Shown here: piece by piece, positions 540-53,034 of the stretch | Layout of the letters: every line of letters begins with the position of its first letter | Position numbering within the stretch: the stretch's first letter is position 1 | From: a virus | Length of the DNA: 64,000 nucleotides | IMG/VR virus record: IMGVR_UViG_3300024264_000023 | Span: 1 to 64,000 of that record | Direction: 5' to 3' (one strand) | The notes under the pieces: model-generated | The model's input: only the letters and a program-made list of their open reading frames with translations | Told to the model about the DNA's origin: nothing | Database searches by the model: none | Translations under genes and position numbers: made by a program

Positions 540-540
540 A

Positions 541-1578: not shown

Positions 1579-1584
1579 AAAATT

Positions 1585-3715: not shown

Positions 3716-3716
3716 T

Positions 3717-4295: not shown

Positions 4296-4303
4296 AACCA
4301 ATT

Positions 4304-4723: not shown

Positions 4724-4754
4724 AGGTCTAATACTTTATTGATTTTTAAAAAGA

Positions 4755-4779
4755 AAGCTCATTGATTTGAGCTTTTTTT
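4755..4779 (+). terminator. Intrinsic terminator after the 139-aa gene
   Basis: Perfect 6-bp stem AAGCTC/GAGCTT with an 8-nt loop, followed by a run of T residues (4773-4779). It lies 32 nt past the stop at 4723 and before the ATG at 4799. The stem overlaps an upstream TTG that could otherwise be taken as the start of the next gene, which supports 4799 as the true start. Confidence 0.8.
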
Positions 4780-4798
4780 GGCTCTAATAAATTATATT

Positions 4799-5122
4799 AT
4801 GAAACAATTAAGGGAAGAAGAAATAATGGATATTAATATCCTAATAGCAATGAACAAGTGTATGGGTGAGCTAGCACATGGATTGCAATATATACATAGT
4901 CAAGAAGTCAAGAGAAAGATCAAACATGTGATTAGGACAGTTGACTTATATGAAAGAGAAATAGATAAAAAGTTAGAGCGTGATGGATCACCAGAAGCTG
5001 TAGAAAATATTTATGATTCTATTATGGATCTTATATTAGAAGCTAAAGTAGTAGCACTTAAAAATTATAAAGATGGAAACACTAATTCAAATGAGAGAGA
5101 GAGTAATGACTCTAGCTCTTAA
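4799..5122 (+). CDS. Small helical hypothetical protein
   Basis: 107 residues, strongly helical and charged, with a Ser/Asn/Glu-rich tail. ATG 4799 is preferred over the in-frame TTG at 4778 because that TTG falls inside the terminator T-run. No known domain. Its 3' end overlaps, in another frame, the short helix-turn-helix gene at 5073-5219, so the two are probably co-translated. Could be a partner or regulator for the DNA polymerase two genes on; that is inference. Confidence 0.65.
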   Translation: MKQLREEEIMDINILIAMNKCMGELAHGLQYIHSQEVKRKIKHVIRTVDLYEREIDKKLERDGSPEAVENIYDSIMDLILEAKVVALKNYKDGNTNSNERESNDSSS

Positions 5123-5219
5123 TAAATATAAAACTGTAAGAGGTGCAGCTAAAGCTTTAGGTATTACTGAAAGAACTTTACATACATTTAAAGATAAACT
5201 TAAAAAAACAAAAGAATGA
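5073..5219 (+). CDS. 48-aa Fis-type helix-turn-helix protein
   Basis: ATG 5073 to TGA 5219. The segment KYKTVRGAAKALGITERTLH followed by TFKDKLKK is a textbook Fis/NtrC C-terminal HTH: a helix, then A-A-x-x-L-G-I-x-x-x-T-L. The gene overlaps the end of the 107-aa gene in another frame by 50 nt, and its stop overlaps the start of the DNA polymerase gene (ATGA), so it is translationally coupled to the polymerase. With 48 residues it is essentially only the DNA-binding unit. Likely role: binding phage DNA to regulate transcription or mark an origin. A shorter start at 5106 is possible. Confidence 0.75.
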   Translation: METLIQMRERVMTLALNKYKTVRGAAKALGITERTLHTFKDKLKKTKE

Positions 5220-7207
5220 AGCATTGGGTAATGGATTATGAGACTTTATCTAATTGTTTCACCGGAGTATTTGAACATTATAAAACAAATGAAAGCAAAA
5301 CGTTTGTTGTTCATGATCTGAGAAATGATTTTGATGAGTTTATAGATTTTCTTGAACAAAACGTTACAAATAAAGAGTGGCATATATCATACAACGGTTT
5401 AGCCTTTGATGGTCAGATCACTCAATATATAATAGATAATCATTACTTATGGTGTGATCTTAAAGGATGTGAAATAGCTAATATAATCTATAGGTACGCA
5501 CAGTACTGTATTAATAAGTCTAATAACAAAGAGTTTATGGATTATCCTATATGGAAAATGCAGGTGGGTCAGATAGATCTATTTAAGTTACATCATTGGG
5601 ATAACCCGGCTAAACGTTCTAGTCTTAAGTGGATACAATACAGTATGGACTGGCAAAATATATTAGAAATGCCTATAGATCATACAGCTAAGATTAAAAC
5701 TCTTGAAGAAATTGATACTATAATTGAGTATAATGTTAATGATGTTAAATCAACTAAAGAAGTCTTTAATAGATCAAAATCACTGATAAAACTACGTAAA
5801 GAGTTGACAGATACATATAATATAAATCTGTATAGCGCCTCTGAACCAAGAATTAGTAAAGAACTTTTTGGTTATTATTTATCAGAAAAACTTAATATAC
5901 CAAAGAGGGACCTTAAACAAATGAGAACTCATAGAACTGTTATTAAAGTATCTGATATTTTATTACCATATATAACGTTTACATCTCAAGAGTTTAAAAC
6001 ACTACATGATAGGTTTAAATCTTTAGAGATAGATGCTACTAACTTAAAAGGTAGTTTTAAATATCATATAGATTATAAATCTGTAAAGACACATTTTGGT
6101 TTAGGTGGTGCACATGGTGCTGCTAGCAAAGGTGTTTATGAAAGTAGTGATGATATGTTAATTATGAGTTCAGATGTAACATCTTTTTACCCAAATTTAG
6201 CAATCAAAAACAAGTGGTCACCTGAGCATTTTCCAGTTGACCAGTTTTGTGATCAGTATGAATGGTTCTTTGAAGAGCGTAAGAAGATACCTAAGAGCAA
6301 TCCAATGAATTATGTATACAAGATTATACTTAATTCTACTTTTGGCCTTAGCAATGATGTAAACAGCTTCTTTTATGATCCAGAATTGTGTATGAAGATT
6401 ACAATTAATGGTCAACTAACATTAATGATGCTTTATGAACAAATAATGGAGCGTATACCGGGTGCTGTAGCTTTATTACAAAACACAGATGGCGTAGAGA
6501 CTATAATACCAAGAGAGCACTATGATTTATATATGCAAATATGTGAAGAATGGGAGGAGAAAACTAATTTAAACTTAGAACATGATGAATATCAAAAGCT
6601 TGTTTTATCTGATGTAAATAATTACATTGGTGTAAACAACTACATAGATGTTGACATAACAAAGTTTAGAGAAGTTAAACAGTCTTTACCTCATTATTTG
6701 TTTAAAGTTAAAAATGATAAATTTAGTTATGCCCCTGTTAAACTTAAGGGTAGATTTGATTTTCACAACTTACAGTTGCATAAGAATAAGTCTAAGTTGG
6801 TTATACCAAAAGCTATATATGCTTTTTTTGTAAAAAACATACTACCTGAAGACTATTTAGAACAAAATAAAAACATTCTAGATTATTGTATAGGTGGTAA
6901 ATCAAAGGGTAATTGGCAGCAAGTAGCAAGATATGTTAAGGATGGCAAATACACTGAAGATAAATTACAAAAAATCAATAGATATTTTATATCTAAAGAT
7001 GGAGTAAAGATTGTAAAAGTTAACAAAAATGATGATCGTGAAATACAACTAGAGGCCGGCAAGTGGTTACAAAGTTTATTTAATGATATGCAAGTAGAAC
7101 CTAAATGGGAAAACTATAATATTAATAAGCTTTATTATCTGCAAGCAATTGAGTCAGAGATAAATAGTATATTATCAGTGTCATCAAATCAATTAAAATT
7201 ATTTTAA
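5216..7207 (+). CDS. Family B DNA polymerase with 3'-5' exonuclease domain
   Basis: 663 residues; replicates phage DNA. Exonuclease motifs: ExoI D7-Y-E9, ExoII N60-G-L-A-F-D65, ExoIII Y172-N-V-N-D176. Polymerase motif A is SSDVTSFYPN (D320), motif B is K369-x3-N373-STFG, motif C is QNTDG (D425). Two oddities: the first acid of the usual D-T-D in motif C is Asn (N423), and only about 49 residues separate motifs A and B, where phi29 polymerase has more than 100. The C-terminal 230 residues are phage-specific. The start is fixed by the ATGA overlap with the HTH gene. The short length and missing insertions resemble the compact family B enzymes of some crAss-like and related phages, but I cannot tell from this gene alone whether it is protein-primed. 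Confidence 0.92.
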   Translation: MKHWVMDYETLSNCFTGVFEHYKTNESKTFVVHDLRNDFDEFIDFLEQNVTNKEWHISYNGLAFDGQITQYIIDNHYLWCDLKGCEIANIIYRYAQYCINKSNNKEFMDYPIWKMQVGQIDLFKLHHWDNPAKRSSLKWIQYSMDWQNILEMPIDHTAKIKTLEEIDTIIEYNVNDVKSTKEVFNRSKSLIKLRKELTDTYNINLYSASEPRISKELFGYYLSEKLNIPKRDLKQMRTHRTVIKVSDILLPYITFTSQEFKTLHDRFKSLEIDATNLKGSFKYHIDYKSVKTHFGLGGAHGAASKGVYESSDDMLIMSSDVTSFYPNLAIKNKWSPEHFPVDQFCDQYEWFFEERKKIPKSNPMNYVYKIILNSTFGLSNDVNSFFYDPELCMKITINGQLTLMMLYEQIMERIPGAVALLQNTDGVETIIPREHYDLYMQICEEWEEKTNLNLEHDEYQKLVLSDVNNYIGVNNYIDVDITKFREVKQSLPHYLFKVKNDKFSYAPVKLKGRFDFHNLQLHKNKSKLVIPKAIYAFFVKNILPEDYLEQNKNILDYCIGGKSKGNWQQVARYVKDGKYTEDKLQKINRYFISKDGVKIVKVNKNDDREIQLEAGKWLQSLFNDMQVEPKWENYNINKLYYLQAIESEINSILSVSSNQLKLF

Positions 7208-7211
7208 ACAT

Positions 7212-7571
7212 ATGGATTATTTTGAATTAGAATGTGCAGTTGAAAACTGGGCAGAAGAAAAAGGTATTCTTGCTAAAGCTACACCAATGGCCCAGTCATT
7301 GAAAACATTAGAAGAAACAACAGAACTTATTACGGCTATCAATAATGATGACCGTGAAGAGATTATAGATGCTATGGGTGACATTATGGTCACCTTGATT
7401 ATTCAAGCTAAGATGCAAAATCTTAGTTTAGAAGAGTGCCTTGAAAGTGCTTACAATGTAATTACAAAACGTACAGGTAAAATGATTAATGGTCAATTTG
7501 TAAAGGACATTGAAGTAAAAGATATAGATATTATATCTGGTACTGAGTCAGCTTACATAAAAAATGATTAA
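7212..7571 (+). CDS. mazG: MazG-type nucleoside triphosphate pyrophosphohydrolase
   Basis: 119 residues, a single MazG domain. The metal-binding signature is complete: E34-E35-x-x-E38 followed by E50-x-x-D53 in EIIDAMGD. MazG enzymes hydrolyse (d)NTPs to (d)NMPs; phage copies are linked to nucleotide pool control or (p)ppGpp handling. It lies directly after the DNA polymerase and overlaps the next gene by 8 nt, consistent with nucleotide supply for replication. Substrate specificity cannot be read from the sequence. A second probable nucleotide hydrolase of another family sits at the end of this block. Confidence 0.85.
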   Translation: MDYFELECAVENWAEEKGILAKATPMAQSLKTLEETTELITAINNDDREEIIDAMGDIMVTLIIQAKMQNLSLEECLESAYNVITKRTGKMINGQFVKDIEVKDIDIISGTESAYIKND

Positions 7572-8406
7572 GGTACAAAAAACAACAACTCTTATAACTA
7601 AACCAAATAACAATAGTGCTAACTGCATAGCCCCAAACCTCATATATGGTTGTTTTGGTGGCTGTGTAGATACCTACTGTTATATGTCTAGGTATAATGG
7701 TAAAAGAGTTTTTGTAAATAGAAACGTTGATCAAATATTTAAGTCTGTTGTTGATTGGGAAAAAAGTTACTATAAAGTGCCTGATCAACAAGACCCAATA
7801 TACACAATGGTTGACATTGCTTGTAATACAGATTTAGTACTGATGCAGAAACATGTGAGGAAAGCAGGAATTTCTTTATATGATTACTTGCTTATGTATG
7901 ATAAACATAAAAATCTTAATACAACAATGGCTACAAAGTACCCAGGACTATTAACGTTAGACGTTAGTAATTTTAACAAGCCTCCAAGAGTTCGTGTTAG
8001 TCTTATGCCTCAGAAGTATTCTAATATATTAGAACCTAAGATGCAAAAGATAGAAAGCCGTATAGCTGATGTTAACCGTCTCAAGCAGTTGGGATGGGAA
8101 GTACATTGTAATTACAGCCCTCTTGTATTTTATCCCGGATGGAAAGAAGAGTATGATAATCTTTTTAAACAGGTAAAAGAACTAGCAGGTATAAATAAAT
8201 GTGAGGTAATTGCTTTAACCAATCATAAGAACCAAATGATTAAAGCATCACCAGAAGCGCAGGAACTAATGAGGCGTTCTTATGAAGTTAAAAATCAATC
8301 AGGCGTTATGAGGTATCCTTTAGAACATAAAGGCAGGCTAATCAATGAATTCAAGGATATATACAAGAAGTATTTTCCTTTAAACACAATAAGATATATA
8401 TTTTAA
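7564..8406 (+). CDS. Radical SAM protein, spore photoproduct lyase-like
   Basis: 280 residues. Residues 26-41 contain NLIYGCFGGCVDTYCYM, the probable 4Fe-4S/SAM site with C30, C34 and C39. Downstream stretches RVRVSLMPQKYSNILEPK, LGWEVHCNYSPLVFYPGW and DIACNTD match the conserved body of the spore photoproduct lyase family. That family repairs UV thymine dimers through a SAM-derived radical. The Cys spacing here is C-x3-C-x4-C instead of canonical C-x3-C-x2-C, so cluster binding or activity may differ; an additional C21 is nearby. Likely a light-damage repair or nucleotide-modifying enzyme of the phage. Family moderately sure, reaction unsure. Confidence 0.75.
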   Translation: MIKVQKTTTLITKPNNNSANCIAPNLIYGCFGGCVDTYCYMSRYNGKRVFVNRNVDQIFKSVVDWEKSYYKVPDQQDPIYTMVDIACNTDLVLMQKHVRKAGISLYDYLLMYDKHKNLNTTMATKYPGLLTLDVSNFNKPPRVRVSLMPQKYSNILEPKMQKIESRIADVNRLKQLGWEVHCNYSPLVFYPGWKEEYDNLFKQVKELAGINKCEVIALTNHKNQMIKASPEAQELMRRSYEVKNQSGVMRYPLEHKGRLINEFKDIYKKYFPLNTIRYIF

Positions 8407-8437
8407 TTTGCTGAGTCAGATTAATTTATTATATTTA
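8407..8437 (+). promoter_or_regulatory. Bacteroidota-type promoter for the DUF932 gene
   Basis: TTTG at 8407-8410 and TATATTTA at 8430-8437 (7 of 8 to TAnnTTTG, counting the free positions) are separated by 19 bp, the preferred spacing of the Bacteroidota housekeeping promoter. The ATG of the next gene follows 21 nt later. The -33 element starts at the stop region of the upstream gene, so this would start a new transcript inside the block. Confidence 0.6.
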
Positions 8438-8457
8438 CACTTAATAAGTTTATAATT

Positions 8458-9339
8458 ATGGGATATAAAAAACCAACAGAAGTGACTAAAGCATTTCTAA
8501 AAAGTCAACCTTTACCTAACCATGGTAAATCTTACACAGTCATATCACACAAAGAAGTGATAGACAACACTATGAATCTTCTTAATGCAAGTGGATTCAC
8601 TATAATAAAAGAAGTCTATAGATCTAATATGAATGCTAATGTAGCACAAGGTATCTATCATTTAAGACCTATTAATCCTGTTGATAGCAGTATAATGGAA
8701 GAAGAAGAACTAGGTATGATGTTCTCTTGGACTAACTCTTATGATAAAAGTACAAGGTTTCAGTGTGCTATAGGAGCTTATGTTAAAGTATGTTCAAACG
8801 GAATGGTTGCTGGTGATATGATGAATTACACTAGAAAGCATACCGGAACAGCTAATATGGACACTAAGTTACATATGACAGATCAAATCAAGAATGCTGA
8901 AGTATATTATAAAAGATTAATAAATGATAAAGAATATCTTAAGTCTGTTGAACTTAGCTGTAAACAACAGTCAGAGTTGGTAGGAAGATTATTTATTGAT
9001 GAAGATATAATAGACACACAACAAGTATCTATGATAAAGAAAGAAATGGATAAACCATCTTTTGATTATGGTCAGAGTAATAACAGTGCGTGGGCTTTTT
9101 ATAATCATGTAACGCATGCATTAAAGAAAGCACATCCAAGAGACTGGTTATCAGATCAAAAAGACTTTCATGATTTTGTAACTGCTGAAGTTATAAATAA
9201 GAACTTATATGCTAATCTAGAAGTTAACACCAATGTTAATGACATAGATATAGTTATGGAAGATATTGTTGAAGTTCCAATTGATATAGATATAACAGAA
9301 AAAGTATTAGTTCAAGAAATGTACATGGGTAGAATATGA
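8458..9339 (+). CDS. DUF932-family phage protein
   Basis: 293 residues. The central region FQCAIGAYVKVCSNGMVAGD with a following KHTG resembles the DUF932 (phage/plasmid-like protein) core, which typically reads ...VCsNG...H. The family is common in phages and plasmids of many hosts and has no settled biochemical role. The C-terminal 40 residues are very acidic (Asp/Glu/Val/Ile repeats). The gene has its own host-type promoter and overlaps a membrane microprotein gene by ATGA, so it probably starts a sub-operon of small genes. Confidence 0.75.
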   Translation: MGYKKPTEVTKAFLKSQPLPNHGKSYTVISHKEVIDNTMNLLNASGFTIIKEVYRSNMNANVAQGIYHLRPINPVDSSIMEEEELGMMFSWTNSYDKSTRFQCAIGAYVKVCSNGMVAGDMMNYTRKHTGTANMDTKLHMTDQIKNAEVYYKRLINDKEYLKSVELSCKQQSELVGRLFIDEDIIDTQQVSMIKKEMDKPSFDYGQSNNSAWAFYNHVTHALKKAHPRDWLSDQKDFHDFVTAEVINKNLYANLEVNTNVNDIDIVMEDIVEVPIDIDITEKVLVQEMYMGRI

Positions 9340-9419
9340 GCCCAGGATTAAGAATACTTTTTTTAATTATTATAATATATATAATATGGATCCTAAAAGG
9401 TAGAAAGTTAGGTGAATAA
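9336..9419 (+). CDS. 27-aa single-pass membrane microprotein
   Basis: ATG overlaps the DUF932 stop (ATGA), and its TAA overlaps the next ATG (TAATG). The peptide begins MSPGLRI, has an uninterrupted hydrophobic segment LFLIIIIYIIWIL (13 residues, with flanking hydrophobics enough to span a membrane) and ends with a basic KGRKLGE tail. Coupled overlaps on both sides support it as a real gene despite the length. Function unknown; it may act at the inner membrane during takeover or lysis timing. Confidence 0.6.
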   Translation: MSPGLRILFLIIIIYIIWILKGRKLGE

Positions 9420-9469
9420 TGATGGGGCCAAACCAACTGCATGTTATACATGTAGGCCCCTACACCTAA
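9419..9469 (+). CDS. Possible 16-aa peptide coding region overlapping a strong hairpin
   Basis: ATG ATG start at 9419 in a TAATG overlap with the preceding microprotein; the peptide reads MMGPNQLHVIHVGPYT. Almost the whole coding region folds into a hairpin (listed separately). Either this is a leader-type peptide whose translation melts the hairpin and controls the next gene (ATG 9480), or the open frame is accidental and only the RNA structure matters. I cannot decide from one sequence. Confidence 0.35.
   Translation: MMGPNQLHVIHVGPYT
9424..9460 (+). promoter_or_regulatory. Two-stage RNA hairpin upstream of the 72-aa gene
   Basis: Inner stem CTGCATGT (9437-9444) pairs with ACATGTAG (9448-9455) across a TAT loop, with one G-T pair. 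An outer stem GGGGC (9424-9428) pairs with GCCCC (9456-9460), leaving an 8-nt one-sided bulge (9429-9436). It is much more GC-rich than its surroundings. No T-run follows, so it is not a terminator; it lies 20 nt before the next ATG and could modulate translation or mRNA stability. Confidence 0.55.
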
Positions 9470-9479
9470 TTAAGTAAAT

Positions 9480-9698
9480 ATGGACTGGACTAAAACACAA
9501 CTTACAGAACCTGAGCAAAGAGCACAGAGCATATATAATAATATGGGTCCTACAGATGGACTTATACACATCCTACAGTTGCGTTATACTTGTGAAGAAA
9601 TGCCTTTTGAAACATTAGTAAAATACTGGAAAGAAGTAGAGACTGTGTTTAGGACTATAAGAGGAAAAAAAAATATAAATGTTAGAGATTGGTTATGA
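9480..9698 (+). CDS. Small hypothetical protein (72 aa)
   Basis: Soluble, helical, no recognised family. It contains the acidic/aromatic stretch MPFETLVKYWKEVETVFRTI and ends VRDWL. Its stop overlaps the start of the next gene (ATGA). Upstream is the GC-rich hairpin at 9424-9460. Confidence 0.6.
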   Translation: MDWTKTQLTEPEQRAQSIYNNMGPTDGLIHILQLRYTCEEMPFETLVKYWKEVETVFRTIRGKKNINVRDWL

Positions 9699-9886
9699 AA
9701 AAATTCATAGAGTTTGCATTAATATGGTACAGTCAGCAAATGGCAATACCATTTTGGGTAATCGGACATGTACATCTAAGTATAAATACATATAAAGATA
9801 TTCATGAGATTATAGCTAGCTTAGGTTTAAACCTACTCGTAGCTGTTGGATTCATAATTGACTATCGTAAAAATAAAAATAAATAA
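9695..9886 (+). CDS. Small membrane protein (63 aa)
   Basis: The ATG at 9695 forms an ATGA overlap with the previous stop and is preferred to the TTG six bases earlier. There are two hydrophobic segments: about residues 6-26 (ALIWYSQQMAIPFWVIG) and 38-54 (IIASLGLNLLVAVGFII), with a basic RKNKNK tail. Probably an inner-membrane protein with two spans. Function unknown. Confidence 0.6.
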   Translation: MKKFIEFALIWYSQQMAIPFWVIGHVHLSINTYKDIHEIIASLGLNLLVAVGFIIDYRKNKNK

Positions 9887-9890
9887 ACTT

Positions 9891-10106
9891 ATGCATGAAT
9901 TATTTGATATATGCGTTGAGGTGTTATACTGGATAGCAGATATAACTGGCTTAACATATAAGGAAGCTAATATTTGGATTTTTGTAATTATTCATCCCAT
10001 AGTTACTGTGGCTTTATTTGCAATAGTGATTTGGCAAAGGAATAAAATTAATCGTAAAGTAAAGACAAATGACAAAGAAAGAAAAAAGAGAACAAGAAAG
10101 ATATAA
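9891..10106 (+). CDS. Small membrane protein with basic tail (71 aa)
   Basis: ATG 9891 is chosen over an upstream TTG inside the previous gene. A hydrophobic span WIFVIIHPIVTVALFAIVIW (about residues 29-48) is followed by a Lys/Arg-rich cytoplasmic-type tail. The N-terminal helix (ELFDICVEVLYWIADI) is amphipathic. Its 3' end overlaps the next gene by 38 nt in another frame. Function unknown. Confidence 0.6.
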   Translation: MHELFDICVEVLYWIADITGLTYKEANIWIFVIIHPIVTVALFAIVIWQRNKINRKVKTNDKERKKRTRKI

Positions 10107-10275
10107 TAAAGCAGGTATAAACTTTATACCTTGCAGTGAAGATAGTCAAATTTACAGCTGGCAAAGAACTAATAGGAAAGCAACATCTCGTGCTGCAAAT
10201 GGTCCATGTGGAGCATATGAAGTTAGAAAGATTGAAGATGTTATGGCTGAAAGAAGGAAAAAGAAAAAGAAATGA
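10069..10275 (+). CDS. Small basic hypothetical protein (68 aa)
   Basis: Lys/Arg at both ends (TKKEKREQER at the start, ERRKKKKK at the end), with a central uncharged segment containing two Cys residues. No family recognised. It overlaps the preceding gene by 38 nt, and its stop overlaps the next start (ATGA). A nucleic-acid-binding role is possible from charge alone. Confidence 0.55.
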   Translation: MTKKEKREQERYNKAGINFIPCSEDSQIYSWQRTNRKATSRAANGPCGAYEVRKIEDVMAERRKKKKK

Positions 10276-10583
10276 TAAAAAAAGAATGGCTATTTATGGA
10301 TAAAGCTGAAAAAAGAAAAGATACTCCAGTATTTACTGGTGTTCTTAAATACTTCCCGGATGCTATTATGGAAATAGCAAGAGTTTCCTTACAAGGAAAC
10401 AAACAACATCACCCTGATAAACCATTACATTGGGATCGTAATAAGTCTAATGATGATTTTGATGCATTAGCTAGACATCTTATAGATGCAGGAACAATTG
10501 ATGATGACGGAATACGTCATACAGCAAAGGTTGCTTGGCGTGCACTTGCATGTTTACAAAAAGAATTGGAAGATCAAAAATAA
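10272..10583 (+). CDS. DUF5664 / dATP-dGTP diphosphohydrolase N-terminal-type protein
   Basis: 103 residues. The core PVFTGVLKYFPDAIMEIARV, then GNKQHHPDKPLHWDR, DALARHLID and HTAKVAWRALACLQKELE, matches the family known as DUF5664 or dATP/dGTP diphosphohydrolase N-terminal domain. The His, Trp and Asp residues (QHHPD, HWDR, RHLID) are the conserved ones. The family is frequent in phages and linked to purine deoxynucleotide handling, including in phages that use 2-aminoadenine. No purZ-like gene is in this window, so base modification is not implied. It ends one base before the convergent leftward block. A second start (M9) is possible. Confidence 0.7.
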   Translation: MIKKEWLFMDKAEKRKDTPVFTGVLKYFPDAIMEIARVSLQGNKQHHPDKPLHWDRNKSNDDFDALARHLIDAGTIDDDGIRHTAKVAWRALACLQKELEDQK

Positions 10584-20153: not shown

Positions 20154-20318
20154 CTATTTCTTTTTTCCTTTAATAGCTTTGACTACAGCTTTAGTTCTTT
20201 TCTTGGTTTCTTTAGCACCCGCAATAACTTTTTCATCAACTTCTGTTTTAGACCAAACCCATTTCCAATAGTCTTGTAAGCTAAAAGTCCATAACACATG
20301 TAATATTTTTTTAATCAT
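20154..20318 (-). CDS. 54-aa basic protein, first gene of the leftward fibre/lysis operon
   Basis: Starts MIKKILHVLWTFSLQDYWKW (aromatic amphipathic head) and ends in a Lys-rich tail (KKRTKAVVKAIKGKKK). First open frame left of the divergent control region, with a leftward GTATATTA motif 29 nt upstream. The amphipathic head plus basic tail could bind membrane or nucleic acid. No family recognised. Confidence 0.6.
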   Translation of the reverse strand: MIKKILHVLWTFSLQDYWKWVWSKTEVDEKVIAGAKETKKRTKAVVKAIKGKKK

Positions 20319-20358
20319 CGTATTTAATTTTAAAGTACTATACTAATAATATACAAAT

Positions 20359-20377
20359 TTTGATTAACCTAATCAAA
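20359..20377. repeat. Perfect palindrome, candidate operator
   Basis: TTTGATTA-ACC-TAATCAAA: two 8-bp arms with a 3-bp centre, no mismatches. The left arm contains the promoter -33 element, so a dimeric protein bound here would block or modulate the RNR promoter and perhaps the leftward one. Confidence 0.6.
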
Positions 20378-20393
20378 TATATTGGTATATTTG
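20359..20393 (+). promoter_or_regulatory. Bacteroidota-type promoter driving the RNR operon
   Basis: TTTG (20359-20362) and an exact TAnnTTTG match, TATATTTG (20386-20393), are separated by 23 bp, at the upper end of the usual range. Predicted start is near 20400, about 65 nt before the first ATG at 20464. Confidence 0.65.
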
Positions 20394-20463
20394 TCTACAG
20401 TCAGGTAGATAACTATATAAGTAATATACAAAAATTCTGACAAAAACCTTTAATTAATATTTT

Positions 20464-20652
20464 ATGAGTAAAGTAAATCCTTTAGTATTTAAAAATAGAT
20501 TTAACATTGAGTTTTTACCAACAGAAACACTGCTTGGTTTTAAAACTGTAAACTGTGAAGTTTTATGTGATGATGATAAATACCGTTGGGTCAACGGTTT
20601 AGAGATAGGTCTTATATTTTTAACATTATCTTTTGTGAATATTAGGTTATAA
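20464..20652 (+). CDS. Small hypothetical protein at the head of the RNR operon (62 aa)
   Basis: Contains RFNIEFLPTETLLGFKTVNC and CDDDKYRWVNGLEIGLIFLT. Beta-rich, with a D-D-D-K turn, and a hydrophobic end that is probably not a true membrane span. No family recognised. It is transcribed from the promoter at 20359-20393; a hairpin separates it from nrdB. Being first in the nucleotide-reduction operon, it may be a regulator or simply a leader gene. Confidence 0.6.
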   Translation: MSKVNPLVFKNRFNIEFLPTETLLGFKTVNCEVLCDDDKYRWVNGLEIGLIFLTLSFVNIRL

Positions 20653-20697
20653 TCCTTTCATATAAGACAATTTTTTTTTAAATTATATCTATCTAAC

Positions 20698-20731
20698 AGC
20701 TGCATTCTTCCAAAGAGGGGTGCAGCTTTTT
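20698..20731 (+). terminator. Terminator or attenuator just before nrdB
   Basis: Perfect 7-bp stem AGCTGCA/TGCAGCT with a 16-nt loop containing CTTCC and GAGGGG, which may pair further, followed by five T (20727-20731). It lies between two genes of the same direction, only 20 nt before the nrdB ATG. I see no strong promoter after it, so partial read-through (attenuation) of the RNR genes is likely. Confidence 0.7.
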
Positions 20732-20751
20732 AATCCTTAATAAATTATACA

Positions 20752-21732
20752 ATGAACAAAGACATCTTTAAGCCCAGAGTAAACATATTGCCTTATGAAT
20801 ATCCACAACTATTAGCATACAAAGATGCAATTAGACACTCCTACTGGATTGATACAGAATTCAACTTTACAGAAGACATACAAGACTTTAAAGTCACTAT
20901 ATCAAATGGAGAAAAAGATGTCATTAAAAAAACAATGCTTGCTATTGCACAAATAGAAGTTAATGTTAAAACCTTTTGGGGAGATCTTTATAAGAGAATG
21001 CCAATCACAGAAGTGGGTGATGTAGGCTTTACTTTTGCTGAGTCAGAAGTAAGACATAAAGATGCCTACGCCAGACTGCTTAGAATACTAGGATTAGAAA
21101 AAGAATTTCAATCAGTAGTTGAGGTACCTGCAATAGAGGGTAGACTTAAGTACTTAAAAAAGTACCTAGATGGTACACGTTCTAGAGACAATAAGATGTA
21201 TACTAAGTCTGTATTGCTATTCTCTTTATTTATAGAGCACGTAAGTTTGTTTAGTCAGTTCTTAATTATGATGAGCTTTAACAAAGAAAAGAATGTACTT
21301 AAAGGTATATCTAATGTTGTTGAGGCTACTAGTAAGGAAGAAGAGATACACGGTAACTTTGGTGCTGAGATTATTAATATAATCAAAAGAGAAAATCCAG
21401 AATGGTTTGACCAAGAGTTTGAAGATCTGATTGATTCAGCATGTAGAAAAGCATATAGAGCAGAGTGTGGTATACTTGATTGGATCTTTGAGAAAGGTGA
21501 GCTTAGCTTCTTACCCCAGAATACAATACAACACTTTATAAAAAACAGATTCAATAACTCTTTAGAAAAGATAGGTATGAAATCTATTTTTGAGGTAGAT
21601 GAAGAACTATTAAAATCAGTAGAATGGTTTGACATAGAAATAACAGGCACCAAAGAAGGAGACTTCTTTTACAAGAAGAGTGTTGACTATAACAAGAAAA
21701 GTAAGAGCATCACAGTTGATGATTTATTTTAA
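20752..21732 (+). CDS. nrdB: Class I ribonucleotide reductase small (beta) subunit
   Basis: 326 residues; carries the di-iron tyrosyl radical cofactor for reduction of ribonucleotides. Visible ligands and radical site: E99-V-R-H102-K-D-A-Y106 (E-x2-H with the radical Tyr four after the His) and the second-half E-E-x-I-H motif in SKEEEIHGNF. The early IDTEFNF segment supplies the first acid. Length is slightly shorter than bacterial NrdB but complete. It is followed 11 bases later by nrdA, the reverse of the usual bacterial gene order. Provides dNTPs for phage replication. Preceded by an attenuator-like hairpin. Confidence 0.95.
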   Translation: MNKDIFKPRVNILPYEYPQLLAYKDAIRHSYWIDTEFNFTEDIQDFKVTISNGEKDVIKKTMLAIAQIEVNVKTFWGDLYKRMPITEVGDVGFTFAESEVRHKDAYARLLRILGLEKEFQSVVEVPAIEGRLKYLKKYLDGTRSRDNKMYTKSVLLFSLFIEHVSLFSQFLIMMSFNKEKNVLKGISNVVEATSKEEEIHGNFGAEIINIIKRENPEWFDQEFEDLIDSACRKAYRAECGILDWIFEKGELSFLPQNTIQHFIKNRFNNSLEKIGMKSIFEVDEELLKSVEWFDIEITGTKEGDFFYKKSVDYNKKSKSITVDDLF

Positions 21733-21743: not shown

Positions 21744-23369
21744 ATGGAATATAATAAGTACTACTGGCTGAATGAAGACAGCCGCACATTTTTATCAAGA
21801 GGGTATATATCAGAAAGCCCTGAACAAAGAATCAAAGACATTGCTATTAAAGCAGAAAAGTATTTGAATATAAAAGGCTTTGCAGAAAAGTTTGAGGATT
21901 ATATGGCAAGAGGGTTTTACTCTTTGTCTACTCCTGTATGGATTAACTTTGGTAAACAAAAAGGTTTACCTATAAGCTGCTACGGATCTAACGTTGATGA
22001 TAACTTAGATAGCATATTAAATGCAGGCCGTGAAATTGGAATGATGAGTAAATATGGTGGAGGTACAAGTGCTTTTATTGGTAACATTAGAGCAAGAGGA
22101 ACTGAAATATCTACAGGTGGTTTTGCTGATGGTCCAGTGCACTATGCTAAGATTTATGATACTGTAGTGGACGTTTGCAAGCAGTCTGAGGCCAGACGTG
22201 GTGCTTGTGCAGTATACCTACCCGTTGAGCATGCGGATATCTTAGAGTTCTTAGATATTGGTACAGAGGGTAATCCTATACAAAATTTACAGTATGGTGT
22301 TACAGTTACTGATCAGTGGATGCAAGAGATGAAAGATGGTGATAAGAGCAAGCGTAAAGTATGGGCTAAGATCATTCAGAACAGAAGTGAGTTTGGGTTT
22401 CCTTATATTATGTTTAAAGATAACTCTAACAATAATTCTCCTTATAAAGAACTTGGTATGGAGATTACAGCATCTAATCTATGTTCAGAGATCCAGCTTC
22501 CTACTGATAGTTATAACTCTTTTGTATGTTGTCTTGGTTCTATTAACTTATTACACTGGGACCTTATAAAAGAAACGGATGCAATTGAAACATATGTATA
22601 TTTCTTAAACGCAGTAATGGATGAATTCATTATTAAGTCTGAGACTATGCCGGGTATGAAGAGAGCGTTTAACTTTGCTGAGAAGCATAGAGCAATTGGT
22701 CTTGGTGTATTGGGATACCACTCTTTGTTTCAATCTAAGCTTCTTGAGTTTGACTCATTACAAGCTAAAGGATTAAACAGTGAGATCTTTAGAACACTTA
22801 AAGATAGAAGTGAGATTGCTTCTAGAGAGTTGCATAATGTGTATGGATACACATCTCTTAGAGAAGGGTATGCTAACACTACTCTTATGGCCATTGCTCC
22901 TACTAAGTCTAGTTCATTTATACACGGTGCTGTGTCTATGGGTATAGAACCTATTAAGTCTAACTACTTTATTAAGGACCTTGCTAAGTCTAAGACTATT
23001 TACAAGAACCCATTTTTAGAAGAGGAACTTGAGAAGTATGGTCTAAATACAGACAAGACTTGGAAATCTATCCTAAAGAAAGATGGTAGTGTACAACACT
23101 TAGATTTTCCTACTAAAGCAGTGTTCAAGTCTTTTGTTGAGATATCTCCAAAAGAGCTTGTACTCCAGGCGGCACAAAGACAAAAGTATATTGATCAGTC
23201 ACAGTCATTAAACTTGATGATAGATCCATCTGTCTCAGCTAAGGATATTAATAAGTTATATATGTATGCTTGGGAAGAAGGTGTGAAAACTTTATACTAT
23301 CAATTTAGTAAAAGCAGTGCACAAGACTTTGCAAGAAACATTTTAGAATGTAGTAGTTGTGAAGGTTAG
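21744..23369 (+). CDS. nrdA: Class I ribonucleotide reductase large (alpha) subunit, short form
   Basis: 541 residues, against about 750 for E. coli NrdA: there is no N-terminal ATP-cone, so dATP inhibition is probably lost. Catalytic residues are present: first redox Cys C79 (in ISCYGSN), N245-L-C247-S-E249, second redox Cys in FVCCLGS (C262/C263), radical-transfer tyrosines Y518-Y519 and a C-terminal CSSCEG (C536/C539) pair for thioredoxin or glutaredoxin reduction. The barrel is therefore complete. It pairs with the nrdB just upstream. Its end overlaps the next gene by 11 nt. Confidence 0.95.
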   Translation: MEYNKYYWLNEDSRTFLSRGYISESPEQRIKDIAIKAEKYLNIKGFAEKFEDYMARGFYSLSTPVWINFGKQKGLPISCYGSNVDDNLDSILNAGREIGMMSKYGGGTSAFIGNIRARGTEISTGGFADGPVHYAKIYDTVVDVCKQSEARRGACAVYLPVEHADILEFLDIGTEGNPIQNLQYGVTVTDQWMQEMKDGDKSKRKVWAKIIQNRSEFGFPYIMFKDNSNNNSPYKELGMEITASNLCSEIQLPTDSYNSFVCCLGSINLLHWDLIKETDAIETYVYFLNAVMDEFIIKSETMPGMKRAFNFAEKHRAIGLGVLGYHSLFQSKLLEFDSLQAKGLNSEIFRTLKDRSEIASRELHNVYGYTSLREGYANTTLMAIAPTKSSSFIHGAVSMGIEPIKSNYFIKDLAKSKTIYKNPFLEEELEKYGLNTDKTWKSILKKDGSVQHLDFPTKAVFKSFVEISPKELVLQAAQRQKYIDQSQSLNLMIDPSVSAKDINKLYMYAWEEGVKTLYYQFSKSSAQDFARNILECSSCEG

Positions 23370-23956: not shown

Positions 23957-24049
23957 TGATTAATCTCATTTTGCTTTAATCCAAAAGGTTTATACTATAA
24001 TATACATAAATTATACGTCATACCTAGGATTTAAACCTGTTAATTTGTC
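23957..24049 (-). promoter_or_regulatory. Intergenic region with leftward GTATATTA motif
   Basis: 93 bp between the 1915-aa gene stop and the holin start. On the minus strand it holds TATGTATATTATAGTATA (core 23998-24005), matching copies at 20347 and 52994, followed by AAACCTTTTGG about 30 nt before the ATG. No convincing Bacteroidota TTTG/TAnnTTTG pair is seen, so this may be a phage-specific promoter. Confidence 0.4.
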
Positions 24050-29800: not shown

Positions 29801-32800
29801 CTATAAATTACATCTTTTGATTTCTTCTAAGAAATTTTTAATTTTTTCCTCTTCTGTTTTCCCTTCATATGACAATGTTTCATTTTCATATAATGCTGTA
29901 AGATCTTTCAAAGATACAATATTATTATCAGCCAGGTTTTTTCTCATCTCAGTAAACTCATCTGCTATGTATGGAGCATTAATTGTTTCATTATAGAATA
30001 CTGTTATTAATGGATACTTGTCTTCTAAAGCTGCATCAAATAAATCTAATTGTTCATTTTGTTTTGAAGTTAGCTCAGGCATATTATTTTCAGCTGATAA
30101 AATACCTTCTGTCTCTGTTTTAATATTAGCTTGTTCTCTTGATTGTGTTGCTGGTTGAGTAGATCTATAAGCATCAGCTAAAGATTCAATAAACCAATCT
30201 TGACCACCTGTTTCCCAAACTGTATTTTGTTTAGTAGGTTGGTGAGTAGAAGAACTTATCCAATCAACACCTCCTTTTTCAGTTATTGAAGAAATTAACC
30301 TAGGGTGTTGCTCTAACTTAGCTGATATTAAATCTACCATCAACCTATAGTTATTACTATTTTCCTTAGTGGGTTTAGTCCTAGCTTCAGACTTATCTTT
30401 TAATGCCTGATAAGCTGCCTCAACATCTTTATAGTTTTTACCGTTAAAAGTTATAGGGTAAGACTCTGCAAGGTTACCTTTAGACTTAGCTAATTCCGTA
30501 GGATTAGTAAGCGCTGCTGCTAAACCTTTAGCATTAGAAGATATTTCAACCTTACTAGTTTGTTCTGTAGGAGTTGTTAAGCTTTCTAAAAGTGTATCAG
30601 CATTTACCTGTGCAATGTTAACTGGAACAGCAGCTGAATCTATTTGAAATTCTACACTGTCTTCTGTAGCAGATACATTTGCACTTTCAGTTCTAAGTGC
30701 ACGGGCTGATATAGATTTTGATCTATCTAAATTAAGATTTTCAATATCCAATGAATCAATAACTTGATCTATACCAAGCATGTCTTCTATATTACCTATA
30801 ATATCAGTTTTATTACTAATATTATTTCTAACTGTTGCATATGTATCTCTAGCACCAAACATAAACCCTATTGCATTTTGATAATTTGACCCCATAAATG
30901 GAACTTCATCATACATAAATGATGTGCTTTTTTCTTGATCTTCCCTTAGTAAAAATAATTTGTTTGATCTTTCTACTCCAAATCCAGTATCTGTTTCAGT
31001 ATAATACCTTAAGTATTTTGGTTGATTTTCAAAAACAAATGCACCATCAACCTGTGAGTTCTTAGGGGCAGATAATGTTAACACACCGTCTTTACTTAGT
31101 GCTGTTTTACCTTTAATTGAAGTTTGTGTATCTGAAGAACCATCAACGTCTGTCCTAACCTCTTTAAAAGTAAGATTAAACATACCAACATTAGATGATA
31201 AGTATCCATTTTCAAACTCATTAAATAACTCATCTTTTGTTAAACCAAAAGCATCCTTGTAATCTTTATCATTAAGTAAAGACTCTTTGGCAGTCTCTAT
31301 TTGTTGTAGATAAGAATCCATTACAAAAGGAGATATTGCTTCTAATAAGCTATCTTTAGAAAGCTGCAAACCATCTTTAACCATAATGTAATTTACAATT
31401 GTTGAGGCATCTTTTCTTGTTGCAGGGTTACCATACAATTTTGCAAATGAGGTTTGAAGATCTATCTTCTGGAGTTTATTTAAATTTCTCCATGTATTAG
31501 CAGCTAAAATATTAATTCCTGTTTTGTTAGACTCTGCATTCACAGGTAACTGTGTAACAAATGATTTAAGAAAAAAGTTATCATTGTCTGCAGCATTTAA
31601 TCTTCTAATAGAATCATAAATATTTTGAGCATCTACCATAGGGTATATAAGCTTATTGCTTAATGTTCCTGCATCTTTATCTTGTGTATTTGCATTGTTA
31701 TGCATATACGCTTTTATAGTAAAGTAAGAAAGCATATCCCTTCTAATCTTCTGCTCTGTCTCTTCATTAAAAGTTATAGCATCTACAGCAAATGACTTTT
31801 CAAGTTTTTCATAAAGTTCATTAAATACAGGAGTTGCTGTTAAGAATACTTGTGGTAAAAGCTCATTTGTTATCTCATTAAAGATATCTAAATTTTGTTT
31901 TACAAAACTATTTTCCAAAATACGGGATATATCAATTACTGGATTTTCTCCAATTTTTTCTATTGCACCTATTTTCTGTAGATCTTTTTTTATTGATGCT
32001 ATGTCAGCAAAGTTTTTACCTAGTCCTGCACTACCTGATATACCAGTTAATGAATTCATATTACCAATAAATTCATTTATAGTATTTACTGTAGATAAAA
32101 TTTCTAGCAGTTCTAGCTCTTGTTTAAAAGAACCACCACCTTCAACTAAACCACCAAGATCTTCTCTAGTTTTTATTCCTGTAGATAAATCTATACCTAA
32201 TATTTTTCCATCTTTTATTTGACCCTGCTTAAATGCTAGCTCCTGATTAACAAGACCTTTAAACCCTGCATCAAACTTCTGTATTTTATTAGATGCTTGT
32301 TCAAATAGATCTCTGGCTATTTTTGAATTTAATATAAGTATTGCGTCAGACAACGGAATTCCTAAAGCAACCATTGTTACAGCTCTTGGTACTGCTTGTT
32401 TGTGCATACCAAGCTTTGACATAAAGTTCTCTTTAGAGTTATCAGTAAGCATTGTTATTATAGCAGATATAGTATCCTGCTTTCTTTTACCTTCAGTAGT
32501 AGTAGCTGTGTCAAATCCAGTATATGGTTTATTCAGAATACTAAACTGTAACTCTCCAGGTAACTTTATCTTATACTCACTTAATAAACTAATGGCTAAG
32601 TTTGGAGATACAGCTCTACCAATTGCTGCACCTTTATTATTAATAAATGATATTACTTTACCATTGATATCATCTACATCAACCTCAGAACCATTCATAG
32701 ATTGAGTGTAGCCTGGTGCAAATTTTTCTAAACTTGCATATGCTTCTTTTACTGCATCTAGTGTAGCCGGGGTATAAGAAATATCTTGTACTGCCTCATT

Positions 32801-35800
32801 ACCCATAAGTGCATATCTCATATTAAGCACTGCATTATTAATTGGTGCTTCATATGGCTCACCATATTCTTCTTTATATTTTTGATACTGAGCTTTGGTT
32901 ACAGGAAGCCCTAGTCTTGTTACAGCCTTTAGCGCATCATCAGTAAACATTTGATCTATAATAAAATTATCATCATAGCTGTCCTCCAATCTTGAACCTT
33001 GAACTTTAAAAGACTTTAATGCTTCAGCATAGATTGTGTCTTGTTTAACTTTTGTATTAATATATTCAACATAATCCTTATACTGTCTACCTTGTGTAGC
33101 ACCATATTGGAAAAACTTCTTCTCTTCTTTTGAATAATAGTATTCTAATATTTGAGTATATACTTTGTCAATATCAAAATCCGCACCTGATACTTCCACA
33201 AGTTCAGCTGCAAACATTGCTGAAGAACCATAATAAACAGGCATAAAATCTACAAGTTTTATATTCATTGTAGAATGATTATCTTGTGATGGTATACGCA
33301 CAGCAAACATTTTTGCAATCATCTCTGGTATAGCACCACCTTTTTCTGCAACCTTTTCAAATACATCTTTGAAGTGAGCAGGCATCATACTTTCTGAATA
33401 ACGTTGTTTTGTTGATCTACCTTTATCATCAAACTCTTGTAGACCATATCTAAGTCTATCTATTACAACTATACCTTCTTTAGGTATTTGTTTTTGGGCT
33501 AACTCAGCCATAGAGAATTGCTTAACGTCTAAAGCTTTCATTCTAACTGCATCAGATTCTCTTATTACTTCATGTCTAAGAGGTAAGAATTTACTATTAC
33601 CTGCTTCATCTTTTATTTCTTCAACACTAAATACTCTTCTATATATATTATTTCCAAAGTCAGAAACCAAAGCCAAACCATGACCTGGTATTTTTTCCTG
33701 GAACACCCCTTTGGTAAAGTAACTTAAAAATAACTGTTCTGCTTTTGCAATAGCCAATGGATTGTTAAAGTCAAACTTAGGTTGTCCTGATACAGGATCA
33801 ATACTAAAAAACTCAATAACATTACTACTAGATTTAGATGCTTTTAAAGAATTGATTGCATAACTTAAGAATGATGCAAGGTCGGGTGTAAGATTGTTTC
33901 TTTCTTTACTTACATTAAACTCTGACATAACTCCATCAAAAGTAAATACTAAATTTCTTTTATTTTTAAATTTAAGAACAACTCTTTTCTTCAATGCATC
34001 ATTATAGAATGCTTTAACTTTCTTTATATTAGTAAGAGCTGGATAACCCGGTATGTTTACCTGTTGAGAATCCTCTTGCTCATTTGTAGCTAATAGTTTT
34101 ATTTGACTTACTTCAGTAACAGAATTTTTATTACTTGGATTTACAACTTGTAATCCAAAATCTTTAGCACTTATTATAGAAGATGGCTCTGATATACTTT
34201 CATCTAAAAGCTGTACATTTTTCTTAGCCATTTTCTGTGCACTTACAGGTGTTGCAATTGCTACATTACCTGTATTTCTTTGAATAGTCTCAAGATCTTC
34301 TCTTAGTTTGTGAAGCTCTGGTCTTAACGGGTTTTCTTCCCAAATAACATTACCGTCATTATCTTTCTTTCCTGTATCTATAGATGTAAATGAGGGTGAT
34401 AAAACAAAAGCAGACATTTTAATAAACTGCTCACCGTCAAAATGAACAAACTTTTTAGAGTTTAACATCCCGTCTGTTTGTATTAACCCTCCTTCATCAA
34501 AGATATCACTTGATGTAATTCTTTCTCCTCGTTCTATTTTAGTTATAACATCAGCTTGTGACTTAGTTAATTTACCTAAACCAAACCAAAAGTTTCTAAA
34601 TGCTTTAGTAGTTAAATAAACCTGTGCATCTGCTCTTTCAATACCTTGACCAGTAAACCAAGAGTTTAAAATAGGATCATCAAATGTTAACACTGATATG
34701 TTTTCAGTCATGGTATCAACACCTAAATTGGTATCAACCATATTAGTATATACATTATCAAATGCTGCATTCTGACCCTTAGCTCTTTTAATCTTATCAA
34801 CAGAGTCTTTAAGTATTAATGCTTGATCACCAAGAAGAAGTTCATTTATAGATTTTGTATTTATATAATCATTGAAAAATATCTGTCTTAAGTTATAATC
34901 TAAATCTTTTCTTAAGTTTAGTTTTTCTGCAGCAGCTACAGCATTTGCTCTATCTACACCAGTTCTGTCTTGAACTATACCAGATTTTATTTCATTAGAT
35001 ATTTTATTATCTATTTTAAGAGTATCATATAAAGACTTAAATCTTTTATACTTAATTTCTAAATTGTTTCTTAACTGATCTTTAAATTGTTTTTCTGATA
35101 ATTCATTATTTTTTAATGCTTCTTTAAAAGTAAGATGCTTTTCAAGAGTTTCTCCAACTTTTTGTTGAGCAGAAACCTCTAAAGATTTCCTTAACTCTTC
35201 AGAAATTAAATCTGAATTATTTACAAAACTAAGTTTTCTATCATCATATCCTTTGTATGAATCTTTTGTTCTGTTTTCACCCTGTTCTCTAACAATTCTA
35301 TCATACTCATTTTTTACAAAATCAAATGATGCATCTATTATGGTGTCTGTTATATCTGCATTTTTACCAGATACTGCAATTGTAACTGGTAGTGTTGTCA
35401 TATCATTAGTATTAGATGACTCTAGAATTCTTATCTGAATAGGAGAGGTGGCTATTTGTTCAACTAAACCAGTTTCTTGGTTTACTACAACAGACTTTTT
35501 AAGCTTATTTGTTTTTGGATTAAAGTCTAATGTATAGTTGTTAATTAAATTTGCCATAAACTGACCGGCTGTAAAGCTTCCATACTCTGTTGTATTCAAC
35601 ACTCCACTGATATATTGATCATAATCAACATCTCTATCTAATGTTTTAACTTCTGCAACACCAGATACTCTTTGTACTGATAGCATATTAGCATCAGACA
35701 TTGCTTTAAACTTATCATTATTTAAAAGATAATTATTTGATAAGTATTCTTTTTCTGATAACTCTTGTAATTTTGCCGGATAATTTAATTCCTTTATTCT

Positions 35801-38800
35801 TTTCAAATGATATGTAGGCTTCTGATGAGCATTCACTAAATCACCATTTACATTTTTAAATACGGATAAACCAATACTCTCATCAAATATGGCATTGTTA
35901 ACTGCCATGGACTTTAGTCTACCTGCTGCACCTTTCTCATCACTATATAGTTCATGAGCTGTCTCTTTGCTTTTTATAATCTCAGATATAAAATAAAGTT
36001 GCTCAGCTGTAATTGGTTCTGCATTTGTGTTTAATGATAAAAGTAATTCTTGATCAGGATGTTTTTCATTTGTACCATTAGACTTTAGTATGCTAAATTT
36101 TATATATTGTGGTGATAAACTTATACCTGTATTATCAAATATTTGTTTAGCTGCATTTTTACTTGAGTCATCTAATTTCTGGTCATTAAACTTTTTACCA
36201 CTTAATAATACTTGTCTAAGACTACTTACTGATTTTACTGCAGAGTTTCTTTCTTTTGGTTTTATCTTCCACTCTTGTAATAATGAAGTGTAAGCTTGAC
36301 TCCATAAAGACAACTGTGTATTTGCATCATCTCTTTCTGCAGCAGAGAAAGTAATTAAACTTCCGTTATTGTCTGTCTTTTGAAATAACCATTCAACTTT
36401 AAAATTGCTAAATGCTTTAAGCTGATTAAACAAAATACTATTCTTAATCTTGGTAGGTAACACCATATCTGATACTGACTCACCCATAGTTATACCTAAG
36501 TCAGTAAATATCTTGTTAACTGCTGCTTTTGTATCTGGATTTGACGTAGAAAATAAAGCTAAAGACTGAACAATTTCCATGGGTTCAGTTCTACCCTCCA
36601 TAGCTTTCATAATACCGTTGTAAGTATTATATACATTTATAGGTACAATCAACTTTTCTTCTCTATTATCTTTTCTTGTTATAGTTGTGTTACCAAATAT
36701 ATCTGACTCAGCTCTTGTTATTGTAGCTAAATACTTTCTAAAGTAAGATGATAATGAGCTAAAGCTTCCATTAAGGTATGCTTCTTTACCATACTGAGTT
36801 ACATTTCTTAGACCTTGATCTTGTTCAAGGCTATCTGCTTCCTCAACCTCTTCTGCTTTTTGGAAGTCTATTGTATCCAAAACATCAAAAGCAGCTTTAT
36901 AATAAGGTGACTCAGTTAGGTCTTCATAACTATTAGAGTATATAAAAGAATCTGTAATTTTTTGTAACAGTTTAGATCTTTCACCATCATTCATATTGCT
37001 TTGATTAGATGGATTGTCAACACTATACAACCACTCAAAGTCATCTAATATTTCTGACATTCTATCTTCTCTAGAGACTTTAGGGTCTTGTTGCTGTCTC
37101 TCTACAAATGTAGCCGCCATAGTTAAAACTATATTATTAGCTACACTACTATCCAAAAACAGTTGTCCTTTACTTGTTCCTACTTGTACTTGCTCATATG
37201 GAATAACAGCATTTGCTATTACTATCTCATTGCTATAGTTATCTGTAAATTCATTTGATACTGATTCAGCCTGTGCGTATCTACCAGAGTCTATATTTTC
37301 ATATAAACTTTGCAATTGAGTTTTAGTATACTTAGAGAATATACCTTTTATCCAATCAAGAAGTTTTGTAAACCATGACTTAACAACAGAATCTGTATTT
37401 GTATCTCTTGGGTTTAATTTAAATTTATTAAACTCATCCGCCATATATTCTTCATAGAAAAGATTTTGTAATTCTTTTAGACTTAGATTATCATATTGCT
37501 CAGATGTATTTTTAAATTTCTGTAATTCTTTAGTAAATGATTTATTTTCTTTTCTTAGCTTAGATCTTACTTCTTTTCTAGCAATTGCTCTTAACTTAAC
37601 TTGTTCTTCTGGTGTTAATAACAATCTGTATACTGCGTGAAATGCCTCATGGTATTTAAATGGGTTACTTGCACCAGTATATATTGTTCCACCTATTTTA
37701 AGATTTCCTGCCAATGCATTCATGTTCAATGCAAAGCCACCTACTCTTACACCACCTTTTAAAAGATTACTTCCTAATACATTTATATCAGCAAGAGTAA
37801 TAGAATCAGGTAAGTTATTTTGTGCCCATACAGTGAAGTCATTTAAAGATTGTACATCCTCTGCTGTAAAATTTGTAACTACTTTATTTGAAATCAGCTT
37901 ATCTCTAGCTTGTTTAAGTTTTTGATATACCGGGTCATTTCTTAATGCTTTTGTTAATCCTCTAGCACCCACTTCTTTTTTAGTGGTGTCTTCTATTTCT
38001 TTTAATTTTACATTAAGTTGATCTAATGGGCTCTGTGTTATAGATGCTAAGTCTATAGAGCCATCTGTTGACGTTGCCGTTTTTTCTTCCCCAACAGGAA
38101 TAGGGTTTCCTTCTGCATCAGTGAATGCCAGTGTTTCAGTAAAGACTGCGTTTGTAGTAATCTTATCTCCTAGATTGAGTATTTTATTAGTGTTATCTTC
38201 TGCAGATAAATTTACATCTTTATCAAAGCTTGCTTGATTAGCAGCACTTGTAGTTTCAAAATTTAATTTAGAGTTACGTCTGACTCTAGGACTAAGCTTT
38301 GTACCAAGGGATTCTAATGTAGTTTGTACATCAGCGTTTAATGATAATGATGTTGTAAATTGATTCAAAGAAATATTTACAGTATCATAACCAGCAACAT
38401 CTAAGTCAGCATTAATCTTTTTCAATAAGTCATTCAGTTGCTTCAAAGGATCTGATGAAGCTTTAATTTCTGAAAGCTCTAGATATGTAGTTGTTATTTT
38501 ACTTCTATTTTTTTCTACTACTGCACGTATTTTTCCAAAGGGTGCAACATTAATAGTAACATCAAATCCAGGAACCATTGCTATCCTGATACTCTTATTA
38601 TTTTCTAGATTAAATACATCAATTTCTTGACCAACAGTTTGTTGTGTCTGACCATTAATATAATTTCCTTTTTCATTAATTGAAGGCTTTATATTTTTTT
38701 CTTTATTTCCTTCCTTCAGTTCAATAACCTTATCCATCATTCCAGTTACAAACTGGCTAATAATGGTTTTGTCTTGACCAATAGTCTTAGCAGTTGCTAA

Positions 38801-52980: not shown

Positions 52981-53034
52981 AATATTATATTATTAATATA
53001 CAAATAATTACTTAGAATCACTAATTTTAAAGGT
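52981..53034 (-). promoter_or_regulatory. Intergenic gap with leftward GTATATTA motif
   Basis: 54 bp before the 945-aa gene. On the minus strand it contains ATTTGTATATTAATAATATA (core 52994-53001), matching the copies at 20347, 20422 and 23998, and further upstream TTAAACCTTTAA next to the stop of the 1464-aa gene. Candidate internal late promoter. Confidence 0.4.

Follow-up and report, generated by a model that had tools for sequence, protein, structure and literature searches.

A candidate late promoter class of marine crass-like phages, one copy of which faces the ribonucleotide reductase promoter and might silence it in cis

Which signals in a short spacer between divergent phage genes could set the order in which those genes are read? 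This question is raised by the region upstream of the ribonucleotide reductase genes in a stretch of 64,000 nucleotides, referred to here as the window, which makes up most of a 71,757-base phage record. The label 'marine' is taken from named kin found in seawater; the record itself bears no such label. A rightward block (132–10583) contains the DNA polymerase at 5216–7207. A spore-photoproduct-lyase-like protein is encoded at 7564–8406 inside this replication block (Pfam SPL, 7e-15). In the rest of the window the ORFs run mostly leftward, and some are giant. The genes that matter for the locus are as follows.

20154–20318, minus strand: 54-aa ORF, the first late-strand gene here, for which relatives have similar ORFs in this position; no PHROGs match
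20752–21732, plus strand: ribonucleotide reductase small subunit (phrog_86, 9e-64)
21744–23369, plus strand: ribonucleotide reductase large subunit (phrog_84, 2e-140)
29801–43810, minus strand: 4669-aa late protein with a crass-like virion RNA polymerase domain (SGADFDIDKVY at aa 3543)

The 4669-aa ORF aligns with gp66 of Cellulophaga phage phi14:2, the catalytic subunit of its virion RNA polymerase (BLASTP 5e-9, 488 aligned columns), and SGADFDID, which contains the DFDID hallmark of crass-like virion RNA polymerases, is present in 7/7 genomes. A phmmer search of PDB sequences with the virion RNA polymerase gave no match. The domain lies towards the C-terminus of the 4669-aa protein, and the phi14:2 subunit is far smaller (2180 aa). 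The Pfam families CrAss_Ring_1 and CrAss_Ring_2 were found in G001, a close relative, and not in the window; the portal evidence likewise comes from G001, whose portal matches crass-like portals. Because of the polymerase domain together with the tail ring proteins and portal of G001, the phage is, on these sequence grounds, crass-like.

For the reductase locus, we compared the window with 80 loci (the best 80 of 481 relatives), giving 81 sequences. From the counts of the -7 box, the palindrome, the PWM matches and copy 2 described below, 22 of the 81 were excluded. Four of these (L019, L051, L052, L057) are contigs that end near the reductase gene, and 18 are loci without the element upstream; those examined among the 18, L058 not being one of them, have a coding gene directly upstream. 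The remaining 59 loci were thinned at 93% similarity to 21 non-redundant representatives.

The preliminary description regarded the 145-nt spacer as a divergent control region between nucleotide synthesis and structural or lysis genes. The comparison supports this view, the rightward -7 box being conserved in nearly all representatives. The signals on which the description relied are listed here.

20359–20362, plus strand: candidate -33 box TTTG, weak (23-nt spacing; TTG at 17–23 nt in 2/21 representatives)
20374–20393, no strand: second dyad CAAATATATTGGTATATTTG, two facing TATATTTG boxes with perfect 8-bp arms
20386–20393, plus strand: host-type -7 box TATATTTG (TAnnTTTG in 20/21 representatives)

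At 20359–20377 the palindrome TTTGATTAACCTAATCAAA is present as claimed; its 8-bp arms match perfectly around a 3-nt loop. It had been read as the operator of a repressor over the reductase promoter, possibly the 48-aa HTH protein encoded at 5073–5219, and both the perfect arms at this place and the presence of a small HTH-like protein in the phage speak for that reading. Its conservation speaks against it. The exact palindrome occurs in 9 of the 59 loci and 2 of the 21 representatives, all carriers being the closest relatives, and the sister lineages L022 and L061 lack it and retain the -7 box and both leftward elements. The preliminary description had itself made conservation in relatives decisive, and with 2/21 the conserved operator fails. 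Repeats of this kind also arise readily by chance: in dinucleotide shuffles of the AT-rich spacer, a perfect 8-bp-arm repeat appeared in 433/2000 (22%) when the loop was allowed up to 12 nt, and in 203/2000 with a loop of up to 4 nt. The real spacer holds two such repeats (loop ≤12), and the whole 64-kb window has 24 such places. As to the proposed partner, the HTH protein was found in 5/10 related genomes (the window's own, G001, G002, G004 and G007), and none of the palindrome-bearing loci belongs to the last four, whose loci are L008, L014, L029 and L073. Since the HTH-bearing relatives lack the palindrome, the two do not travel together, and we rejected the protein as its partner. Poor conservation and frequent chance occurrence lead us to rule out the palindromic operator, which we hold to be very improbable.

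The dyad at 20374–20393 is kept in the window, L022, L060 and L061 and is better conserved than the palindrome. The leftward motifs reported on the other strand were confirmed, with a leftward TATATTTG at 20381–20374. A second inverted repeat reported at the predicted start is also present (20394–20398 / 20405–20409), but its arms are only 5 bp long. This 5-bp stem (20394–20409), near the start of the rightward RNA, shows compensatory changes, with TCTAC/GTAGA in the window and TCTTG/CAAGA in L060.

Promoters of the Bacteroidota primary sigma factor carry a -33 TTTG/TTG and a -7 TAnnTTTG, 17–23 nt apart, and transcription starts about 7 nt past such -7 boxes. The rightward promoter resembles them in its -7 box; the exception among the 21 representatives is L021, which has TATCTTCG. 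It differs from them in the -33 box, missing in 19/21. The -33 element that the palindrome was said to cover is present in the window as TTTG and is kept in few relatives. The promoter had been called an exact match: TTTG and TATATTTG are both there, but they are 23 nt apart, and since this is the extreme of the range, 'exact match' is generous. A CTG lies 18 nt from the -7 box in 8/21 representatives.

The strongest signal within the spacer is one that the preliminary description did not list. It is a 21-nt direct repeat (20337–20357 / 20412–20432), identical at 18/21 positions with 75-nt spacing, a level reached by 0/150 shuffles. Read leftward, the repeat is TTTGTATATTA-n(3–7)-TATAg, and we refer to its two occurrences as copies 1 and 2 of the late element.

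20338–20357, minus strand: late element copy 1, TTTGTATATTATTAGTATAG (PWM 28.7 bits; 22.7 bits without the switch sites)
20413–20432, minus strand: late element copy 2, TTTGTATATTACTTATATAG (PWM 26.1 bits; 19.8 bits without the switch sites)
52985–53004, minus strand: further late-promoter element (PWM 29.2 bits), upstream of the ORF at 50143–52980

Across seven related genomes, the exact 11-mer TTTGTATATTA has 34 matches, 3 intragenic and 31 intergenic, with the caveat that sites in related genomes are orthologous and not independent. All 31 intergenic matches are on the late strand and precede late ORFs; the distance to the next called start is at most 104 nt for 30 of them and 139 nt for the remaining one. 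In ten records, 43 matches have the majority orientation and 4 the other; a reversed control gave 6. The same signal emerges from an unseeded count of intergenic 9-mers in the seven genomes, in which TGTATATTA and TTTGTATAT occur 35 times on the late strand versus 0 on the other, the strongest strand excess of all 9-mers. Scanning with the PWM added further, weaker sites, again mostly intergenic and on the late strand. A weak AATATACATA at 23999–24008 was dropped as a late site, as it is not among the PWM matches of at least 9 bits. The site at 52985–53004 has counterparts in G001, G003, G005, G006 and G007. With its downstream ORF (50143–52980), tblastn against named phages gave no match, and a scan of viral contigs yielded only 3 loci.

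An unlinked operon gives the same picture. Upstream of a 191-aa late ORF, which has no PHROGs match, we collected 80 loci (L124–L203, the best 80 of 238 relatives). Among these best 80, the exact 11-mer lies within 100 nt upstream of the ORF in 78/80 loci (19/21 non-redundant), GTATATT lies within 80 nt upstream in 80/80, and the 11-mer has 0 occurrences on the opposite strand and 0 in the coding part. The 21 representatives inspected carry a G+C-rich stem and a T run directly upstream of the element. Such an arrangement, in which an operon is preceded by a terminator and then a conserved -10-like block, is in sequence what a promoter looks like. In L124–L203, upstream of position 601, the terminator-like stem and the late promoter stand back to back.

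Taken together, these data indicate that the late element is very probably a promoter-type signal of the late strand. It would consist of one -10-like block and no conserved -33, as single-element late promoters do in other lytic phages, and the leftward late genes would be served by it. It was not enriched in the four named crass-like phages phi14:2, phi17:2, crAss001 and Lbo-JY46, and G010 has only one exact TTTGTATATTA match, so the element appears bound to a lineage. Our literature search, which covered sources other than the main phi14:2 paper, found no description of a crass late promoter, and the element apparently represents an undescribed, phage-specific promoter class. Host-type promoters are also seen on the late strand: the textbook example TTG-N19-TATCTTTG lies on the minus strand at about 7165 of L001 (record position 70665), and promoters of this type occur in G001, G003, G007 and G008. 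Because they stand near late-type promoters, the genes of the late strand appear to be served by promoters of two classes.

We then ask which factor could read the late promoter. Profiles of sigma-70 regions 2 and 4 (PF04542, PF04545, PF08281) gave no match over the cut-off in 10 genomes, several of whose records are fragments, and such profiles would miss very divergent sigma factors. Given this result, the late factor may be a protein that has diverged strongly, one unlike sigma factors, or else the phage's own polymerase. According to parts of PMC8375218 and of the review PMC10136315, the late genes of crass-like phages are the last to start and the host polymerase probably reads them, and the virion polymerase reads earlier genes; those parts contain no late-promoter motif. 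A different reading is that TTTGTATATTA is the binding site of a phage late activator beside an ordinary promoter, and not a core contacted by polymerase. The failure to find a sigma factor in the 10 genomes would suit it, as would the sequence downstream of the 11-mer, which differs between sites, and the view that host RNAP reads crassvirus late genes (the same parts of PMC8375218 and PMC10136315). However, the site lists hold no TAnnTTTG box at a fixed distance from the element, and by the ORF calls the element can be as close as 11–14 nt to the start, so that a core promoter further downstream would hardly fit. We consider the activator site unlikely. In our preferred model, a phage factor would direct a polymerase towards the single-element late promoter, in a way similar to gp36 of phiEco32.

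At the reductase locus, the two copies differ in position. Copy 1 ends 19 nt upstream of the 54-aa ORF, is conserved in relatives, and would start the leftward genes. Copy 2 faces the rightward promoter, and because the rightward start is presumed to lie about 7 nt past the -7 box, it would cover the early transcribed bases. With a PWM built without the switch sites, 21/21 representatives have at least one leftward match of at least 8 bits and 8/21 have two; a rightward match of at least 8 bits occurs in 4/21, a score that 9% of block-shuffled sequences also attain. The 10-mer core of copy 2 is exact in 14 representatives, has one mismatch in 2 and is absent from 5 (L017, L021, L026, L027, L034); its TATAg half downstream is poorly kept. 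The exact 10-mer turns up in 0.1% of shuffles. Spacing is fixed as well as sequence: of the 14 exact cores, nine begin 17–19 nt after the -7 box and the other five exactly 30 nt after it, and nine representatives keep the core 75–76 nt from copy 1. What the aligned DNA shows directly is the elements with their orientation, conservation and fixed spacing; from these we infer the promoter nature of the element, its time of firing, the polymerase involved and the interference.

We consider it likely that the spacer marks a middle/late boundary, where a host-type promoter drives the reductase and phage late promoters fire leftward, copy 2 interfering. A polymerase bound at copy 2 (20432–20413), or starting from it, would occlude or collide with transcription directed at the reductase; the late promoter may thus occlude the reductase promoter. 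If late polymerase blocks the reductase in this way, switching on the late genes would switch the reductase off. That copy 2 actually silences the reductase is a tentative proposal; so is its extension, that marine crass-like phages possess their own late promoter class and a face-to-face copy that might silence nucleotide synthesis in cis with no repressor.

Copy 2 could instead be a relic. In L006, L053 and L037 an extra leftward gene, which the window lacks, starts beyond copy 2, and there copy 2 is placed as the promoter of that gene. This position speaks for copy 2 as a leftward promoter and against its being a signal in the leader of the rightward RNA. The gene may have been deleted in the lineage of the window, leaving a promoter that silences nothing, and its presence in three representatives, together with the absence of copy 2 from 5/21 and its mismatch in 2, fits this account. 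Its absence from 5/21 also means that, as a reductase silencer, copy 2 would be dispensable. Yet the core is exact in 11/18 representatives without the gene, at a fixed distance from the -7 box, and 9 of these 11 keep the 75–76 nt spacing to copy 1 despite changed DNA in between. We therefore regard a mere relic as somewhat unlikely and retain interference by copy 2 as our working model.

Rightward transcription has a further potential control point. From an expected start near 20400, the host-type promoter would produce a short leader with a small ORF and run into a terminator before the reductase.

20464–20652, plus strand: 62-aa ORF lying between the promoter and the terminator; some relatives, e.g. 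L008, lack it
20698–20732, plus strand: intrinsic terminator with T tract, upstream of the ribonucleotide reductase (covariation; z -4.3)

The hairpin of the window folds with -19.2 kcal/mol (z -4.3); for a longer segment of L008 the fold is no more stable than expected (z -0.03). In an alignment of 18 of 25 representatives, picked by eye as alignable, 8/12 pairs have changes on both sides with pairing kept, and the G+C-rich stem, T run and compensatory pairing are those of an intrinsic terminator. In L008, which lacks the 62-aa ORF, the order is simply promoter, leader, terminator, gene, as in an attenuator. A conserved TTnnTAnATT block stands just before the terminator, itself a possible attenuator; as a repeated promoter the TTnnTAAATT block was rejected, for it does not recur systematically upstream of other genes.

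The reductase might accordingly be controlled mainly by attenuation at 20698–20732, through antitermination or leader translation, with divergent promoters unregulated beyond timing. In its favour, relatives carry the covarying terminator behind the promoter and ahead of the reductase start codon, whether or not they have the 62-aa ORF. But Rfam offers no known riboswitch, its single match (20646–20727, Enterococcus sRNA EF3314_EF3315) scoring 24.6 bits against a gathering score of 100, so that we do not take it as real, and the terminator may merely end the leader or 62-aa transcript while the reductase is read from another start. We judge control mainly by attenuation to be rather improbable, and interference at copy 2 remains our preferred reading.

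A compact, strongly conserved element of this kind predicts start sites, and would allow late operons to be found in uncultured genomes by sequence alone. It could also serve as bait to find the protein, sigma-like or an activator, that acts there. Should copy 2 silence the reductase, the locus would be a temporal switch that works without a repressor.

The locus can be compared with several known systems. The leftward late element does not fit the Bacteroidota primary-sigma consensus. In phiEco32-type late promoters, transcription starts 6–8 nt downstream of the element. According to excerpts of PMC8948821, the middle/late promoters of phiEco32 are single elements (tAATGTAtA) used by the host core enzyme with the phage sigma gp36; as there, our phage has one conserved -10-like block before several late operons and no -35 element. 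The sequence is different, as is the host phylum judged by the phage's kin, and unlike phiEco32 with its gp36, the 10 genomes hold no sigma homologue over the cut-off.

The layout resembles that of phi14:2, with rightward replication and nucleotide genes and leftward structural genes including a giant RNA polymerase protein. The late element of the window is not enriched in phi14:2, phi17:2, crAss001 or Lbo-JY46. The proposed order agrees with the crass-like programme of phi14:2 and crAss001, in which late genes are expressed last, according to the available parts of PMC8375218 and PMC10136315.

Promoter pairs that face each other form the last comparison. Phage 186 and others have convergent promoters with transcriptional interference. 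Unlike the phage 186 type, the promoters here seem to belong to two classes, one host-type and one phage late, and their interference is putative; as in that type, two opposed promoters are found, with start regions that are predicted to overlap.
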